This document shows positions 941 through 32,619 of a DNA stretch of 32,986 nt, in pieces. This DNA is from Deltaproteobacteria bacterium (GTDB taxonomy: Bacteria > Desulfobacterota > Desulfuromonadia > Desulfuromonadales > BM103). A program made the position numbers and the translations under genes. A model generated the notes under the pieces. The model was not told the origin of the DNA. It saw nothing but the letters and a program-made list of their open reading frames with translations, and ran no database searches. Numbering within the stretch: position 1 is the first letter of the stretch; every line of letters begins with the position of its first letter. Where the stretch lies: assembly GCA_019313185.1 (NCBI GenBank), contig JAFDBS010000165.1, forward strand, positions 1 through 32,986, in the 5' to 3' direction.

Positions 941-1051
941 ATTTCGGTCAGGTTTTATTCTGCTTTGGGCAACTTTCCCGATAAAGCCCCAAAGCTCTGC
1001 CAGGCAAGCTTGTTACCGAGTAAGCTCAAGCGCTGGGGAAAGGAAACAAAG

Positions 1052-1453
1052 ATGAGAGGAACCGAACATGCGCCCAGAGGGCAAAAGATTCTGGTCGTTG
1101 ATGATCAGCATGATCTCCTCAATCTCCTGCAAATCTGCCTTTCGAAAGATCATAATGTCGTTGAGGTTGCAGCCGATGGTTTGGATGCTTTGCAAAAATT
1201 GTCCTCGAATTCATACGATCTGATTTTGACTGACATTGACATGCCAAATATGGACGGAAACGAACTTTGCAATTTTATTCGAAAAGCTTGTCTTCAACCT
1301 GAGGTGCCAGTCGTCGCCATTACAGCCGAACCATGGCTTGCAACAGCAGAATTTAATTTGGTTGTCAACAAACCGTTTCGCATTGTTGAAATCAGACAGG
1401 TGGTCGAAGATCTATTGGGGCGCAGTGGATCTGTGGCTTCAATTAAATGGTGA
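1052..1453 (+). CDS. Single-domain response regulator (CheY-like receiver)
   Basis: ILVVDDQHDLL, DLILTDIDMPNMDG phospho-acceptor region, AITAEP, and VNKPF lysine motif. The ORF opens at 965; ATG at 1052 is the more likely start. Confidence 0.85.
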   Translation: MRGTEHAPRGQKILVVDDQHDLLNLLQICLSKDHNVVEVAADGLDALQKLSSNSYDLILTDIDMPNMDGNELCNFIRKACLQPEVPVVAITAEPWLATAEFNLVVNKPFRIVEIRQVVEDLLGRSGSVASIKW

Positions 1454-17645: not shown

Positions 17646-18473
17646 CTAGCGGTTATGACTGTGATGATGAGGCTTGTCAGGGTGTGGCACAATGAGGGGT
17701 TTTTGCGCAGGATTGTCGATGGTTTTGGGAGAGCAGTTTGGACAATTTTGCATAGCAAAGGGTTTCTCCAGGCAGCATCGATCCAACAAGGACTCGTCGC
17801 GAAAGATCTCTAACGTCGGTCCATCGGCCATGACCTGGCCCTCATGCAAAACTATGGTGCGTTCACATAATTCCATAACCATGTCAAGGTCGTGCGAGGT
17901 GATGATCCGAGTATGATGAAACGCTCTTAGCATAGCCATCAGTTGGCGCCGAGCGCAAGGGTCTAAACCGCTTGTCGGCTCATCAAGAATTAAAATTTCA
18001 GGAAGCATCGAAAGAACTGAAGCGATTGCAACACGTTTCTTTTCGCCTCCAGAGAGGTGATAAGGAGGCCTGTCTGTGAGGTTTTGAGCGCCGACGCGGT
18101 CCAGCGCATCCTTCACCCGTCTCTCAACTTCCGATTTCGGAAGTCCCATATTCATCGGTCCGAACGCGACATCATCAAAAACAGTCGGCATAAAAAGCTG
18201 ATCGTCTGGGTCCTGGAAAACCATTCCGACCGTTCGTCTCACATCAACCAAGTTTTTTTTGGAGACAGTGAGGTCCCCTACAACAACTTCCCCAGAGGTC
18301 GCTCCCAAATAGCCATTCAGGTGGAGAAGCAACGTGGATTTGCCGGCGCCGTTGGCACCAATGATGGCAACCGATTCACCGTGATGAACTCGAAAAGAGA
18401 CATCCTTCAGGGCGGTGGTCCCGTCGGGATAGATATGGTGTAAATGTCTTGCTTCCACAATGTGGTGACTCAA
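17646..18473 (-). CDS. ECF-type Ni/Co transporter ATP-binding protein (CbiO/NikO)
   Basis: IIGANGAGKSTLLLHLNGYL, VGMVFQDPDDQLFMPTVFDDVAFGPMNMGL, LSGGEKKRVAIASVLSMLPEILILDEPTSGLD; His-rich C-terminus HPDKPHHHSHNR. Confidence 0.93.
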   Translation of the reverse strand: MSHHIVEARHLHHIYPDGTTALKDVSFRVHHGESVAIIGANGAGKSTLLLHLNGYLGATSGEVVVGDLTVSKKNLVDVRRTVGMVFQDPDDQLFMPTVFDDVAFGPMNMGLPKSEVERRVKDALDRVGAQNLTDRPPYHLSGGEKKRVAIASVLSMLPEILILDEPTSGLDPCARRQLMAMLRAFHHTRIITSHDLDMVMELCERTIVLHEGQVMADGPTLEIFRDESLLDRCCLEKPFAMQNCPNCSPKTIDNPAQKPLIVPHPDKPHHHSHNR

Positions 18474-19285
18474 GGTATTCTCCAGGTCATTAAATTGCCA
18501 AGAAACTGGGGGAGATTATAGAAACGAAAAAACACAAACAATGCACTCCAGCCGCTAATAAAAAACAAATCGTCGCGCCCAAGGCGACCTTTCCCCCAGG
18601 TTGCCTGGAATTCACCCTGAAATCCCCGTGAGAGCATCGCCATATGGATTCGCTCAGCGCGTTCCCAAGTTCTTAGCAAAAGGTGACCGATCAAAGAGCC
18701 AAACTGGTGCAGGCCTAAACCACGTCGACCGAAACTGCGTAATTGCCGGGACCTGGCAACGCGAACAGCCTCATCTGTTAATACGAAAATGTATCGGTAA
18801 AGAAATTGTAGCTGTATCGCAAACACTTGCGGCATACCAAGTTTTTGCAATGCAGCGCATATTGCTGGGAAGCCGGTTACGGCCACCAGGATGATCGCGG
18901 TACTGGCTGTTAAAATTGCTCTCAATAGAATAGAGGCACAGGAAACCCACCCACCCCATACATTAAGCTCACCAAATCGCAAAACCACTTGACGATCAAA
19001 GAGCGGGTTGAACAGACCTATTGCCAGAGCAAATGGAATGACAAGCAACAATTTGCGGAGTAGGTAGCCAGGCGGAAGATTACCCAGGACTGAGAGGACA
19101 ATTGGGAAACTGAGAAAGGGCAGCATTGCTGCTATCGTGTACCGGTCGAAAGAAACCACACAGATGATAAAGACAATGGTTGTGACCACTTTGACCCGGG
19201 CATCAATGCGGTGTATAACCGTATTCTGCAATGCCAAGCGATCAAGACGCTTGAAATCCAATGTAGAGCCGTCTATTGCCAACAT
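18470..19285 (-). CDS. ECF-type Ni/Co transporter transmembrane subunit (CbiQ/NikQ)
   Basis: HRIDARVKVVTTIVFIICVVSF, VFAIQLQFLYRYIFVLTDEAVRVARSRQLRSFGRRGLGLHQFGSLIGHLLLRTWERAERIHMAMLSRGF. Confidence 0.93.
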   Translation of the reverse strand: MLAIDGSTLDFKRLDRLALQNTVIHRIDARVKVVTTIVFIICVVSFDRYTIAAMLPFLSFPIVLSVLGNLPPGYLLRKLLLVIPFALAIGLFNPLFDRQVVLRFGELNVWGGWVSCASILLRAILTASTAIILVAVTGFPAICAALQKLGMPQVFAIQLQFLYRYIFVLTDEAVRVARSRQLRSFGRRGLGLHQFGSLIGHLLLRTWERAERIHMAMLSRGFQGEFQATWGKGRLGRDDLFFISGWSALFVFFRFYNLPQFLGNLMTWRIP

Positions 19286-19325
19286 GGCATGTCTCCATCA
19301 GACAAATCGCGATGCGAATCCATTG

Positions 19326-20342
19326 TCACTTCCTGCACTTTCGCAACAGCAAACCGATCATTGCGCACATCATGAGAGTGACCATGCCACCAACGACTCC
19401 AGCAACACTGGTGGACAGGGGCGCTGTTTGGCCAGCTGACAAATTTTCATTTTCGTTATCTGGGGGAAATGCATAATCTCTCATTATGGCCGTTTTGTCT
19501 TGCAGAGCAGATGCGCGGACGTGTTCTGTGGATGATGGGGGAGGAAGTTCTTCTGCTCCAGTCAACTTGGCAATCGACCATTCAAGACCATCCGGGGATT
19601 CGGAAGCTAACCACGAGAGTCCTCCGGCTAGGGTAAAACTGGCCACCAAAAAGGTGACAACTATGGTTCGCTGCGGAAGCTGACCAATTGGCTGGGATCG
19701 TAAGGCCGCATCCAGTATTTCAGGCCGAGCACGGTAAACAAAAAGAACCACAAAAGCCGTCACGATACCTTCAATAATGCCGATTGCCAGATGAATTGGC
19801 TGCATCAGCATAAGAAATGAACTGAAAGGTAGTGCAGCGACACCTGAGGCAACCGTTTGTAGCACTACACCCAAGGCCCCTAATTGAAGACCAATGACTG
19901 CCGACACAACGGCAGCAAAGAAAATGCGTGATGGCTTCAACGGTCGGCCAACCAAACGCTTGTAAATCCAAGGGTAAGCGATAAAAGCCGGGAAAAAACC
20001 AAGGTTGATGATATTGCACCCTAACGCCAACAATCCCCCATCCGCAAAGAAAAGGGCTTGGACCATCAGCACAGAGGCAATACTCAAAAACGCGGCATGG
20101 GGCCCCAACAAAATTGCCAACAGCAACCCTCCGCCAAGATGACCGCTCGACCCAGTGGCCGGGATGGCAAAATTTATCATCTGTGCCGCAAAAACAAAAG
20201 CGCCGAACACGCCCATAAGAGGAATTTTGCGGTCATTTATCTCTTGTTTTACACGATTCGAACAGTAAGCTATCGTACCTGCCGACACAGTCCAAAGAAC
20301 TCCCCCGACTGTGGGCGATATCAACGCATCAGCCATGTGCAT
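19326..20342 (-). CDS. Ni/Co transporter substrate-binding protein, CbiM/NikM fused to an N-type PDGLE domain
   Basis: MHMADALISPTVGGVLW, GHLGGGLLLAILLGPHAAFLSIASVLMVQALFFADGGLLALGCNIINLGFF; C-terminal SPDGLEWSIAKLTG plus a terminal TM. The ORF opens at 20369; MHMADAL at 20342 is the mature-like start. Confidence 0.92.
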   Translation of the reverse strand: MHMADALISPTVGGVLWTVSAGTIAYCSNRVKQEINDRKIPLMGVFGAFVFAAQMINFAIPATGSSGHLGGGLLLAILLGPHAAFLSIASVLMVQALFFADGGLLALGCNIINLGFFPAFIAYPWIYKRLVGRPLKPSRIFFAAVVSAVIGLQLGALGVVLQTVASGVAALPFSSFLMLMQPIHLAIGIIEGIVTAFVVLFVYRARPEILDAALRSQPIGQLPQRTIVVTFLVASFTLAGGLSWLASESPDGLEWSIAKLTGAEELPPPSSTEHVRASALQDKTAIMRDYAFPPDNENENLSAGQTAPLSTSVAGVVGGMVTLMMCAMIGLLLRKCRK

Positions 20343-20396
20343 ACACCCACCTCCTGCTAGCCCGAACATTTAGTTCATTATTTATCAGACGAATCC

Positions 20397-26834: not shown

Positions 26835-27956
26835 TCACCCTTCGGAGAGATAAAAATTAGGTAGGCTAAAGGTGAATGTTGATCCTTGGCCAAGCACGCT
26901 TTCTGCCCAAATCCGGCCGTTGTGAGCGTTGATAATCTTTCGCGATATGGCCAACCCTAAACCCGTCTGGCGGTCTTCTCGAGTTGTTTTTGTTTTGATG
27001 TCTGGATAGGGCTGAAAGAGTTTGCTCATATCACCCTTGGCAATTCCCGGGCCGTTGTCGATCACGGAAACCTGAAGCTGGCCACTCATTAAAGAAGCGT
27101 TGACAATGACTTTTTGCCCTTCAGGAGAAAATTTGAGTGCATTTGAAATCAAGTTGTTCAGCACTTGTTTGATTCGGGGCGTATCGAAACTAATTTTACC
27201 AGGTGGCAATTGATCGTCTAAAACCAATTCAATACCACTTTTTTGGGCAAAAACCTGATTGATTTCAACGGTTTTACTCAACAGAACGGAAAAATCCTGA
27301 AGATGCAATTTCAGGCTAAGCTTTCCAGCTTCGATTATAGAAATGTCGAGCAGGTCGTTAATCATGGAGAGCATGAAATCGCTTAGGTAACGGATGTCGT
27401 TGAGCAAATGTAAATAGTCTGGGCGTTTGAAATTTTCTGGTTCCATCGCCATCAATTCGCTGTAACCCATAATAACCGTCAAGGGGTTTCGCAGATCATG
27501 AGCCGCCATTCCAAGAAAATGATTTTTCAATTCGTTCAACTTGGTCAGTTCAGCGCTCTTTTTATGAAGTTCACGGGTCAGATTGTTCAACTCATTGTTG
27601 CTTTGAACCAATTCTTGGCGCAGATTGTCCAATTCCAGCGTATCGATCTGTCCCAGCGCAAGGATTCCGTCGTTAAGCTCGTAAAATGAAAAATAGTAGG
27701 TCTGTGGTAAACCAGAAACTGTTGAGAGATTGAGGAGTTGGCCAGATGCCTGTTGTTGAGCACAACGTTTGAGAGAGAAGGTCCCGCGAAAGTCTAAAAA
27801 GATCTCATTGGCTTGTCGGCCCAGTTGATCATTGCCAAGTTGTTTTTGGGCGTGTTGATTTAGGTGGCAGAGCCGCTCTTGACCGTCAAATTCAAGGACG
27901 AGCAAAGCCGCAGTGCTCTCAAGAAAATTGAGCAAAATGGTGTCCCGCGATATCAA
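26835..27956 (-). CDS. Sensor histidine kinase with an N-terminal PAS-like domain
   Basis: H-box FLGMAAHDLRNPLTVIMGYSE; N-box NNLISNALKFSPEG; G-boxes VIDNGPGIAKGD and TGLGLAISRKII; coiled coil after a PAS-like N-terminus. Confidence 0.93.
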   Translation of the reverse strand: MISRDTILLNFLESTAALLVLEFDGQERLCHLNQHAQKQLGNDQLGRQANEIFLDFRGTFSLKRCAQQQASGQLLNLSTVSGLPQTYYFSFYELNDGILALGQIDTLELDNLRQELVQSNNELNNLTRELHKKSAELTKLNELKNHFLGMAAHDLRNPLTVIMGYSELMAMEPENFKRPDYLHLLNDIRYLSDFMLSMINDLLDISIIEAGKLSLKLHLQDFSVLLSKTVEINQVFAQKSGIELVLDDQLPPGKISFDTPRIKQVLNNLISNALKFSPEGQKVIVNASLMSGQLQVSVIDNGPGIAKGDMSKLFQPYPDIKTKTTREDRQTGLGLAISRKIINAHNGRIWAESVLGQGSTFTFSLPNFYLSEG

Positions 27957-27966
27957 TGTCTTAGCC

Positions 27967-28686
27967 TTATGAATTTTGGTCTATAAAATTTTCCAACGCA
28001 TCAAGAGAGACAACCAACTGGACCGAAGACGAAGGTGGGACAAAGGCTGTCTCTCCCCCCACAAAGGCTTGTCCGCCAACAATTATCGGCATCTTGGGAA
28101 ACCTGCAGGACAAGGTATCAACGTGATCCAGCAACACACCCAAATTGGAAATGAGCGTCAACGAAAAACATACAACGTCCGGTTTCTTCTCTCCGACCAG
28201 ATGCAAAAGATCTTTGACCGGCGTATTGGCACCAAGAAAATAGCCGTCCCAGCCATGCAGTTCAAAGATATCTGCCACCATTTTGCCGCCTATTTGATGA
28301 TACTCGTTTGCCACACAACTGATTACGGCTTTCCGGCCAGAATGTTCCGAAGCAAAAATCATCGGATGCAAGAGATTCATGGCGTTCTCGGTAATAGCGG
28401 TAGCGATATGTTCAACAGCGACCGAAATGCTGTTCGACTCCCAAAGCTCTCCAACAGCGTACATTGAGCGCTCGAAAAGACTCAAGTAGATGCTTTTCAA
28501 CGGCACCCCATGTCCCATCAGTTCCTCAACAATGGCCAGACAAGCTTGCCGCTGACCACTGAGGAGTGCATTGAAGTAATTAACATAGACCTTGTCAATT
28601 AGCTCATTGCTGTCTGACTGTTTCATAAATGCCCTGTTCAGTTCGGCGAGATGTTTACTAACGTGTTTTATAACATATATTGGCAA
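27967..28686 (-). CDS. Stand-alone cobalamin-binding protein with CarH-type photoreceptor motifs
   Basis: Helical-bundle motif W-ESNSISVAV-EH (Wx9EH); ANEYHQIGGKMVADIFELHGWDGYFLG (ExHxxG); no DNA-binding domain. Confidence 0.9.
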   Translation of the reverse strand: MPIYVIKHVSKHLAELNRAFMKQSDSNELIDKVYVNYFNALLSGQRQACLAIVEELMGHGVPLKSIYLSLFERSMYAVGELWESNSISVAVEHIATAITENAMNLLHPMIFASEHSGRKAVISCVANEYHQIGGKMVADIFELHGWDGYFLGANTPVKDLLHLVGEKKPDVVCFSLTLISNLGVLLDHVDTLSCRFPKMPIIVGGQAFVGGETAFVPPSSSVQLVVSLDALENFIDQNS

Positions 28687-28741
28687 GAAATAAATTCAAG
28701 AGCTTTTTCCTTGATCATGTAAGCCAGTTCAAAACTTTGTG

Positions 28742-28773
28742 CGAACTGACTATATCTTGCTTTAGTCAGTTCG
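28742..28773. repeat. Perfect 11-bp inverted repeat in the divergent intergenic region upstream of the B12-binding protein
   Basis: CGAACTGACTA-N10-TAGTCAGTTCG, with similar half-sites CAGTTC at 28725 and GAACAG at 28790. Confidence 0.75.
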
Positions 28774-28920
28774 TTTAAGATGCTAAACTGAACAGGTTAA
28801 GTGCATTTTCATTGACTTGAGAGAATTGTTCAAGTTGCGGTCGCTGCTATTTTACGATAGTGGAATGTTTCGGCAACCTTTAAGCAAGACACTCAGTTTC
28901 ATACTGAAATAATTTCTTCG

Positions 28921-30006: not shown

Positions 30007-31296
30007 ATGAAGCACCCTGACCTTTTGATGCAACAGCTCAAATCAGCGACAAGCGCATTACATCGCAATTTAGAAGCGTTGCCTTTCTTTTCCGCATTGG
30101 CTGAAAGGACATTGCCTAAAATCAGCATCGTCGGGCAGCTGAGGGTGTTTGCCATTCAATTTAGTGTTTTGGAATCTGCCCTTGCAGAAACCAGGTTAAT
30201 CGGTCTGTCCAACCTCAAGAACGTGGTGACACAGAAAAAACATCAGCTTTTAGCTGATCTGGATGGGTTAGGAGAGCTTCTCCCTGACTTGAGGCCGACG
30301 GTCCAAGCCAGTCTAACCTGCGCAGCCTCTATGCGCAGCAAGACCCTCGAACAACCGGCGTCCCTGGTAGGCTATCTCTATGTTTTGGGAGGAACGGCTC
30401 TCGGCAACTTGACCCACGCTCATGATGCAGCGTATGCCATTGGCTTACCAATAGGGGAGAATTTGCAATTCTACAACACCAAAAGAAGTGAAGTCGCCGA
30501 GCAGTGGCATTTTTTTTCAAGTCAGGTTAATCGCTTGGAGTTTTCTGACAAACAATGTCAGGAATCGATCGACGCCGCAAAAGAGCTCTTTCACTTTTTG
30601 CATCAAATCCACGCAACCCTTTATCCTTTCGCAAAGCGTGACCTCTATTTTTGTGCAACAACCATAAACCCTGAAGCGGGCAACCATCCTGTCCCGAACA
30701 ACCTTGATGAAATCGAGGCAGCGATTCGGGCAGGTGCACGGTGTTGCAATGAGTTCCCATACTTCAATTTGCGTTATCAGGCCCGTGGCAAAAGGTTTAC
30801 CGACAGTGATGCAGCCTGGTTGGCGACATTGTATGACCTCGAGGACAACGCCGCTTTGGCCCAAGTCACATGGCTGGCAAGGGTTTTAGCCGCTCGTGGC
30901 ATGCCGTCGATAACCCTGATACGGCAACTGAAGCTTCTCTATGAAGAGCTTGCCGCAACAGTACCAGAAAAACAAAAGCGTTATGAAACACTTATCAAAA
31001 TTGCCAAGAATCTCGAAAGCGAGCAAACCAGAGCGGTCGCTCAAACCACGAGGAGAGCCCTGATCAAAAATTTTGAACAGATGGCCCCTGAGACGGAACT
31101 GGCAAACTTTCCCGATGCCGGCGAGCTGTTTCTCTCTGCAGCGCTTGATGAGCATCTTGGCCGAACCAATGCCATTACAAGTTTGGAGGCTTGGCTTGCA
31201 AACCCTCAGAAATTTTCGGCAACCTGGATTGCTGCAGTCAAAAATCTCGTCGCCGAAACCCAACAGGCCATCGCAGAAAAGTCAAAAAAGAACTGA
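30007..31296 (+). CDS. Heme-oxygenase-like N-terminal domain fused to a C-terminal domain of about 200 aa
   Basis: LKSATSALHRNLEALPFFSAL (HO proximal-His-like) and ASLVGYLYVLGGTALGNLTHAHDAAYAIGL (distal-helix-like); C-terminal EIEAAIRAGARCCNEFPYFNLRYQARGKRFTDSDAAWLATLYDLED... AAAGGAG RBS. Confidence 0.72.
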   Translation: MKHPDLLMQQLKSATSALHRNLEALPFFSALAERTLPKISIVGQLRVFAIQFSVLESALAETRLIGLSNLKNVVTQKKHQLLADLDGLGELLPDLRPTVQASLTCAASMRSKTLEQPASLVGYLYVLGGTALGNLTHAHDAAYAIGLPIGENLQFYNTKRSEVAEQWHFFSSQVNRLEFSDKQCQESIDAAKELFHFLHQIHATLYPFAKRDLYFCATTINPEAGNHPVPNNLDEIEAAIRAGARCCNEFPYFNLRYQARGKRFTDSDAAWLATLYDLEDNAALAQVTWLARVLAARGMPSITLIRQLKLLYEELAATVPEKQKRYETLIKIAKNLESEQTRAVAQTTRRALIKNFEQMAPETELANFPDAGELFLSAALDEHLGRTNAITSLEAWLANPQKFSATWIAAVKNLVAETQQAIAEKSKKN

Positions 31297-31377: not shown

Positions 31378-32619
31378 TCAGCTATTTGCGTCCAATGTGC
31401 TGAGCAGAGCCATGAAAAAAGGATACTCGCCGGTGTCGATGATTTTTATCGACATTTTAAGCTTCACTGTTTTTTGATCACGACGCAAGCCAATGAGATG
31501 ATGTTCCTGTTCAAACCATTGTTCCGGTGCCTTGGCAATAAAGCTTGACAAACTCGGCACGTAACTCTCTTCATCGGGAAGGAACAAGCGATCAAACGAT
31601 TCGCCCAACAGCTCGTTTTCCTTGTAACCAAATATCTTCTCGGCTTTTTGGTTGAACAGAAACATCTGGCCATTTGGCAAAAAAGCGACAATTGCATCTC
31701 GAGCGATTTCTGTCATCAAGCGGAAACGCGTTTCTGACTCCTCAAGCTGTCCGGTTTTTTCTTTAAGTTCACTGACCATGGCATTAAACCCTGCTACCAG
31801 ATCACCAATTTCATCATGGGTATCACGGGAAATGGCTTCTGTAAAACGGCCCGTTTGGCGAATGTCGTCTATGGTTTGTGACAACACACTAAGGGGTGTA
31901 ACGACCGTTTTCCGTATCATCAAACCAAGGCAGATCACCAGAGCGCAAAAAAAGCCTGCCGTCGTGACCAATGTTGTATTGAACCCGTGCGCCAGCCTTT
32001 TCTCTATCTGCGCAATCGGAATAACCACAGAGACCGCACCGATCACTTCTCCGATTTTGTAATTATAGGCTTGGTCCTTTTCTGGCGGATAAATATTCCT
32101 CAAAAATTGTGGAGATTCATCTGGTTTGCCGTGACATTCCAAACAACTGGAGTCGGCATATGCTGCCTGCAAATAACGAAACACAGGGTTGCCATCAAAC
32201 TCTGTGACCTCAGCTACATAATCAAGGCTTGCTCGATTAGTCATACGTTCTAACACTTTACGTTCATATTGATCAGGAGCATTTTCGGGGTTTCGAAACC
32301 GATTTGACGTATGACGGATGCTATACGTCAAGTCTTCACTAACCAGTCTGCCAATCCGATTCGCAACAACAACCGGAATCATTCCGTATCGGTCTTCGTT
32401 TAGTTCGATTTGGCCAATCTGGAGCTGTCTGGAAATGTACTCCCGAGTACGAGTCGCTTCTGTGATGATGATTTCAGCCTTTTCGCTTGCTTCGGAAAAA
32501 ACCAATCTTTGATGTTGACGATATTGCCAAATTAAACTTGTGGAAAGCAAGCCTGCAAGACTTATCAATAAAATGATGTTGACTTTCGTCCGCAGGCGAA
32601 AATTTTGCCAAAACCGCAT
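31378..32619 (-). CDS. Membrane sensor: DUF3365-like c-heme domain, HAMP, PAS, no output domain
   Basis: N-terminal TM, periplasmic SSCLECHGKPDESPQFL (CxxCH), second TM, HAMP ETPLSVLSQTIDDI-like linker region, PAS FRLMTEIARDAIVAFLPNGQMFLFNQKAEKIFGYKENELLG, then stop. Confidence 0.88.
   Translation of the reverse strand: MRFWQNFRLRTKVNIILLISLAGLLSTSLIWQYRQHQRLVFSEASEKAEIIITEATRTREYISRQLQIGQIELNEDRYGMIPVVVANRIGRLVSEDLTYSIRHTSNRFRNPENAPDQYERKVLERMTNRASLDYVAEVTEFDGNPVFRYLQAAYADSSCLECHGKPDESPQFLRNIYPPEKDQAYNYKIGEVIGAVSVVIPIAQIEKRLAHGFNTTLVTTAGFFCALVICLGLMIRKTVVTPLSVLSQTIDDIRQTGRFTEAISRDTHDEIGDLVAGFNAMVSELKEKTGQLEESETRFRLMTEIARDAIVAFLPNGQMFLFNQKAEKIFGYKENELLGESFDRLFLPDEESYVPSLSSFIAKAPEQWFEQEHHLIGLRRDQKTVKLKMSIKIIDTGEYPFFMALLSTLDANS

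Follow-up and report, generated by a model that had tools for sequence, protein, structure and literature searches.

In the 32,986-nucleotide stretch of DNA that we have analysed (the window) the gene of a stand-alone, predicted AdoCbl-binding sensor protein of the photocobilin/CarH type (27967-28686, minus strand) is followed after 10 nt by that of a cytoplasmic histidine kinase (26835-27956, minus strand), a pairing that is not due to chance. We lean towards a reading in which the B12 protein is an AdoCbl photosensor that would act in trans on the kinase, probably as a 'split photocobilin' that has a biliverdin source of its own, namely a heme oxygenase that carries a globin-like C-terminal domain and is encoded nearby (30007-31296, plus strand). 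The domains, the motifs and the fold are established, and so is the conservation of the linkage, both within the pair and with this third gene.

The assignment of the B12 protein rests on Pfam, motifs, AlphaFold2 and Foldseek. Its open reading frame comprises 239 aa when counted from a TTG codon; an in-frame ATG at 28626 lies nearer to the start common to the homologues in an alignment of 25 proteins and is probably the conserved start. A helical cap (∼28369-28578) is combined with a Rossmann B12 domain (∼28063-28332), and the sole Pfam matches are B12-binding_2 (49.4 bits, cut-off 23) and B12-binding (59.2 bits, cut-off 32.1). No DNA-binding domain was found by Pfam, neither the MerR-type N-terminal domain that characterizes CarH and LitR, as had been noted in the preliminary description, nor any other, and the score of 48.5 bits against the NCBIfam CarH model is below its cut-off of 400. 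The globin that is fused to the B12 domain in photocobilins is likewise absent, both by Pfam and in the model, the 239 residues containing B12 domains only. The two motifs reported initially, Wx9EH (W-ESNSISVAV-EH) and ExHxxG (EYHQIGG), are confirmed, with Trp62, Glu72, His73 and His110 (ATG numbering; His110 is the H of EYHQIGG) invariant in the 25 aligned B12 proteins, as is the stretch EYHQIGGKMVAD. At the position of GxxH, part of the published photoreceptor signature, the window protein has NxxH.

The AlphaFold2 model of the B12 protein (pLDDT 91) has as its top Foldseek match the photocobilin 8j2w (TM 0.84, E 1e-12), followed by a Chloracidobacterium CarH-like domain and then by MetH and CarH; the residues that contact AdoCbl in the photocobilin, Trp61, Glu71-His72 and His108, correspond to Trp62, Glu72-His73 and His110 here. 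The initial designation as a CarH-type B12 photoreceptor is sound with regard to a photosensor-type domain but not with regard to the subtype, since the nearest structures are photocobilins and none of the 25 members has a His at the position of CarH His132, the bis-His residue that adjoins Trp131; in the window protein Trp62 is followed by Glu. The absence of this His suggests, by analogy with PMC10979010, that the light state would be water-ligated as in photocobilins rather than bis-His. The B12 proteins present in close kin of the host are all distant (the best, from a single genome within the order, has 40% identity), so that the gene is likely to have been gained by horizontal transfer or else to have been lost in those kin.

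The kinase, 373 aa long, is read from a TTG that is preceded by AAGG and was identified by Pfam as well as by the conservation of its N-terminus and its adjacency to B12 genes in relatives. It is of the HisKA type, with HisKA (∼27324-27527, 53.1 bits) and HATPase_c (∼26859-27185, 97.9 bits) both above cut-off and with the H-box HDLRNP and the glycine boxes present in the alignment, in agreement with the kinase first described on the same strand as the B12 gene. A degenerate PAS domain (∼27626-27956) and a conserved coil (∼27537-27635) make up the N-terminal module, referred to in what follows as PAS-coil. The PAS-like character originally ascribed to it is borne out by the family, 11 of 23 members matching PAS_8 and 7 of 23 PAS_9, with the window protein itself below cut-off (PAS_8, 13.3 bits). 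The coil is strongly conserved (consensus LNxELxNLTRELHKxNAEL), and what lies behind it differs: HisKA/HATPase in most partners, HisKA_2 in one (L111) and, in kinase-less partners (Omnitrophota, L002, L109), a short Cys4 tail, IPICxxCxKIR..SHGxCPxC. In a mirror-tree comparison resting on 17 proteins the distances among B12 proteins correlate with those of the PAS-coil with r=0.76 and with those of the kinase core with r=0.61; that the PAS-coil tracks the B12 distances better is a weak hint that it may be the contact site for the B12 protein.

Relatives were sought with the B12 protein alone in one genome per species, 85,462 species in all, and 25 were found (tblastn identity 43-52%) in Thermodesulfobacteriota, Verrucomicrobiota and other PVC bacteria, Omnitrophota, Spirochaetota, Planctomycetota and one Methylococcaceae MAG. 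A PAS-coil partner, with the N-terminal domain of the window kinase, is located directly downstream in 22 of the 25, in most cases overlapping the B12 gene at its end; in L002 the partner is nearby and divergent, in L011 it is on a separate contig of the same genome (L112), and in L014 a kinase remnant is all that is left. Searching the genomes of the 25 relatives with a profile of the PAS-coil domain gave 26 places, most of them the B12 neighbours themselves; one, an additional copy in L114, is not next to a B12 gene. When 247 genomes drawn evenly from the phylum of Desulfobacter were searched, the PAS-coil domain occurred in 4, exactly those 4 with a B12 family match above 200 bits and always adjacent to it, one of the genomes carrying two tandem pairs. 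The hypergeometric P of 6.6e-9 for this co-occurrence overstates independence, since the genomes share descent, while the spread of the pair over several phyla does not depend on this value. Among 243 genomes from the phylum of the Verrucomicrobia genome L016 both genes are present, and adjacent, in 3; a fourth genome has an interrupted B12 frame beside the PAS-coil, a fifth match stops at a contig edge, and 3 more genomes contain divergent B12 genes, 2 of which adjoin divergent kinases. Conserved adjacency of the pair, proposed as a check in the preliminary description, thus holds across several phyla, and an apparent operon of the B12 gene with a dedicated kinase is supported.

Most of the matches of ∼155-180 bits in the phylum of Desulfobacter combine a B12 domain with an additional domain at the N-terminus, which in L104 matches Pfam Phycobilisome above cut-off; a profile built from six such domains retrieves from the PDB phycobiliproteins as well as the globin portion of photocobilins, and we class these cousins as photocobilin-like proteins. 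The next gene encodes a coil or PAS-coil with GGDEF in L105, L107, L108, L123 and L127, and also in L132, but there the B12 protein is without the extra domain; in L104, L122 and L126 it encodes a kinase, and in L128 a kinase is found ∼275 bases off. In the tree the window B12 protein falls within a stand-alone clade, with support of 99/99 for the split from the other clade.

As had been stated for this DNA, no response regulator adjoins the kinase in the window; the nearest that was found there is an orphan single-domain receiver 25 kb away (965-1453, plus strand). The statement does not extend to some homologous loci (L110, L113, L114, L148), where regulators consisting of a receiver (REC) with a Cys4 tail, or of REC-LuxR, lie near the kinase. 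The tail, a domain without a Pfam name (L114:1462-2091; L110:2124-2810; L148:973-1767; L018:5635-6258), ends receiver proteins near the system in L006, L016, L110, L114 and L148. Since the same tail is found on receivers and on kinase-less partners, the latter are, as judged from their sequences, PAS-coils fused directly to what otherwise ends a response regulator. Two tandem B12/PAS-coil-tail pairs are seen at L109:2031-5601, with the second B12 gene interrupted in frame. At L114:2084-3208 a PAS-coil kinase is followed by a REC-Cys4 tail gene; no B12 gene is adjacent and a complete pair is present elsewhere in that genome.

The pair is separated from the CNNM and heme oxygenase genes by a divergent intergenic region (28687-28920). 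In this divergent promoter region there is a perfect 11-bp inverted repeat, GAACTGACTA..TAGTCAGTTC, with a 10-nt spacer (28742-28752/28763-28773), which occurs once in the window where 0.01 would be expected and is a candidate operator; the region itself is presumably regulatory. Neither a cobalamin riboswitch nor any other RNA was matched by Rfam within the window. A Tll0287-like (DUF3365) sensor with HAMP and PAS and without an output domain (31378-32619, minus strand) adjoins the heme oxygenase gene.

The two-gene layout proposed originally survives as a pair with a dedicated kinase, but it overlooked the heme oxygenase gene, which lies 1.3 kb from the B12 gene in divergent orientation, with the CNNM gene in between. 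Its product consists of a heme oxygenase part (∼30007-30621; Pfam PF01126) and a conserved globin-like C-terminal domain of ∼215 aa (∼30637-31293), and on the grounds of Pfam, linkage and hhalign it is probably a third, conserved component of the sensor set. BLAST places full-length homologues near B12 or kinase genes at 11 loci, 12 with the window; contig L150 has a further homologue after a kinase end, and the gene order in G089 is B12, heme oxygenase-globin, PAS-coil-histidine kinase, REC-Cys4 tail. In the heme oxygenase alignment His19 is nearly invariant and Gly129 and Gly133 are invariant, residues that we take to be, consistent with what is known of the family, those of heme ligation and of the glycine-rich distal helix, respectively. 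When 32 selected genomes were searched with a profile of the C-terminal domain, 13 proved to contain it, for the most part at the B12 locus.

Comparison of this profile with photoglobins by hhalign gave P 5.5e-5 (Prob 66, ∼108 columns), as against 0.17 and 0.78 for unrelated controls. Within the domain an S-D close to the position of phycobiliprotein C-x-R/Q-D is invariant and an RGMP where BBAG-2 has RGMC is nearly so, and both Cys of these photoglobin/BBAG-2 motifs are absent. AlphaFold2 predicts an all-helical structure (pLDDT 93) for which Foldseek places photocobilin and haemoglobin chains among its top probabilities (0.5-0.8) with non-significant E-values, and there were zero matches in Pfam or in a direct PDB profile search. 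On this moderate evidence the domain is probably a bilin-type globin of the BBAG-2/photoglobin type. Two other candidates were considered and rejected: a phytochrome as the user of biliverdin, no PHY domain being found in the host's own, 86%-complete genome, and a separate photoglobin detectable by Pfam PF00502, of which the same genome has none.

It might be argued that the heme oxygenase-globin is unrelated to the sensor, serves heme or iron metabolism and is a mere neighbour, so that the sensor would be made up of the B12 protein and the kinase alone. The gene is indeed missing from roughly half of the pair-bearing genomes, the globin fold is non-significant by Foldseek E-value, and in the window the gene is divergent and set off from the pair by the CNNM gene. 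However, the C-terminal domain is present in just 2 of the 247 genomes from the phylum of Desulfobacter, both times beside B12 genes of the same superfamily, the similarity to photoglobins far exceeds that of the controls, and B12 and heme oxygenase-globin distances are correlated (r 0.88, n 9). We consider a chance neighbourhood unlikely, though far from negligible.

The main rival to light as the signal is sensing of AdoCbl itself, whereby the B12 protein would inform the kinase of the supply of AdoCbl (or of AdoCbl as opposed to hydroxocobalamin) and light would be irrelevant in vivo. One pocket would serve either use, many of the hosts are sediment anaerobes, and the window includes genes of a cobalt ECF transporter (CbiM with PDGLE, CbiQ and an ABC ATPase; 17649-20369, minus strand) for the uptake of cobalt for B12. 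Against this, the Trp and Glu-His by which the adenosyl group is held are invariant and constitute the signature published for light sensors, a photocobilin is the best fold match, a chromophore system is indicated by the linkage with heme oxygenase and with globin-like domains, and the window is without a cobalamin riboswitch; such a cobalamin-status sensor appears to us improbable. Very much less credible is a methyltransferase corrinoid subunit with an incidental kinase neighbour, the alternative held out in the preliminary description, for although it would have the same two-domain fold, with MetH among the fold matches and with NCBIfam models of corrinoid proteins and of MetH matched weakly, these NCBIfam matches are all far below cut-off, no methyltransferase gene was found in the window, the Trp/Glu-His is invariant, and the adjacency to kinases is kept across phyla.

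In the photosensor reading that we favour, the B12 protein would be made together with the downstream kinase and would bind AdoCbl in the dark, with His110 as the lower ligand and with Trp62 and Glu72-His73 holding the adenosyl group as in photocobilins. Light would break the Co-C bond and alter the oligomer or the position of the cap; the B12 protein would contact the PAS-coil N-terminus, which would feel the light state and alter kinase activity, and the kinase would in turn transfer phosphate to a response regulator encoded elsewhere in the genome, in some relatives perhaps the REC with Cys4 tail near the kinase. The divergent heme oxygenase-globin would probably make and hold biliverdin as a second chromophore or antenna, and the set would resemble a photocobilin split over separate chains. 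We infer light as the signal, protein contact, the direction of control and bilin binding from the comparisons given above. Counting against the photosensor reading, many hosts are anaerobes, whereas heme oxygenase requires oxygen; furthermore, the B12 protein does not itself carry the globin part, GxxH is replaced by NxxH, and the heme oxygenase-globin gene is missing from about half of the genomes with the pair. Somewhat short of probable, and advanced tentatively, is the fuller proposal that a heme oxygenase carrying a bilin-holding globin of its own docks in trans on a stand-alone AdoCbl photosensor, giving green-plus-red input to a PAS-coil kinase with receiver/Cys4-tail output, the whole having spread horizontally among distant, largely anaerobic phyla.

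Schneider and coworkers are said to have predicted, in 2022, a light-sensing unit of B12 and photoglobin that is coupled, also via gene neighbourhood, to signalling domains of bacteria; their work reportedly concerned globin-bearing proteins, whereas the pair described here has a globin-less B12 protein. Both photocobilins (PMC10979010) and BBAG-2-type globins with heme oxygenase and B12 proteins (PMC10151467) have already been published. The photocobilins (SasPcob 8j2w/8j2x, AbDPcob 8j2y; PMC10979010) are alike in B12 fold, in the Trp, Glu-His and axial His, in having a signalling output and, probably, in a bilin-globin partner; they differ in that their globin is on the B12 chain, whereas the globin-like domain here is on the heme oxygenase and the output is a separate kinase gene. 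CarH and LitR share Wx9EH, ExHxxG and the B12 fold, but the protein described here has neither their MerR DNA-binding domain nor an equivalent of His132, and has a kinase partner. AerR/PpaA resemble it, by description rather than by alignment, as B12 sensors without a DNA-binding domain of their own that act on a partner protein (PMC5362033), although the partner of AerR is the transcription factor CrtJ and not a kinase. In BBAG-2-type clusters, so far as the accessible part of PMC10151467 describes them, a B12 protein, a bilin globin and heme oxygenase are associated and the RGM motif is shared; the globin there is a separate protein, with a bilin reductase in some clusters, whereas here the globin-like domain is fused to heme oxygenase, and that part of the description mentions no kinase such as the pair has here. 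A literature search that left most subscription journals and all supplements outside its reach found no paper on a B12 sensor whose dedicated kinase is a separate protein and none on a heme oxygenase-globin fusion.

Previously known modes of action of B12 photoreceptors are DNA binding (CarH), acting on a repressor (AerR) and fusion to enzyme domains (photocobilins). The linkage described here points to a route by which light sensed through B12 would enter two-component signalling, namely a dedicated kinase that is a protein in its own right and has a recognisable PAS-coil module, and also to a heme oxygenase fused to what appears to be its own bilin-binding domain. The system is testable in the cultured relatives Desulfobacter latus, Desulfogranum marinum and Solidesulfovibrio aerotolerans, and, if the reading is true, would provide a modular green/red-light sensor for optogenetics. 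The association in heterotrophs of bilin globins with heme oxygenase and B12 proteins, for which there has been no explanation, would then also gain a function, and the findings suggest a light-sensing system of separate proteins in several distant bacterial groups.
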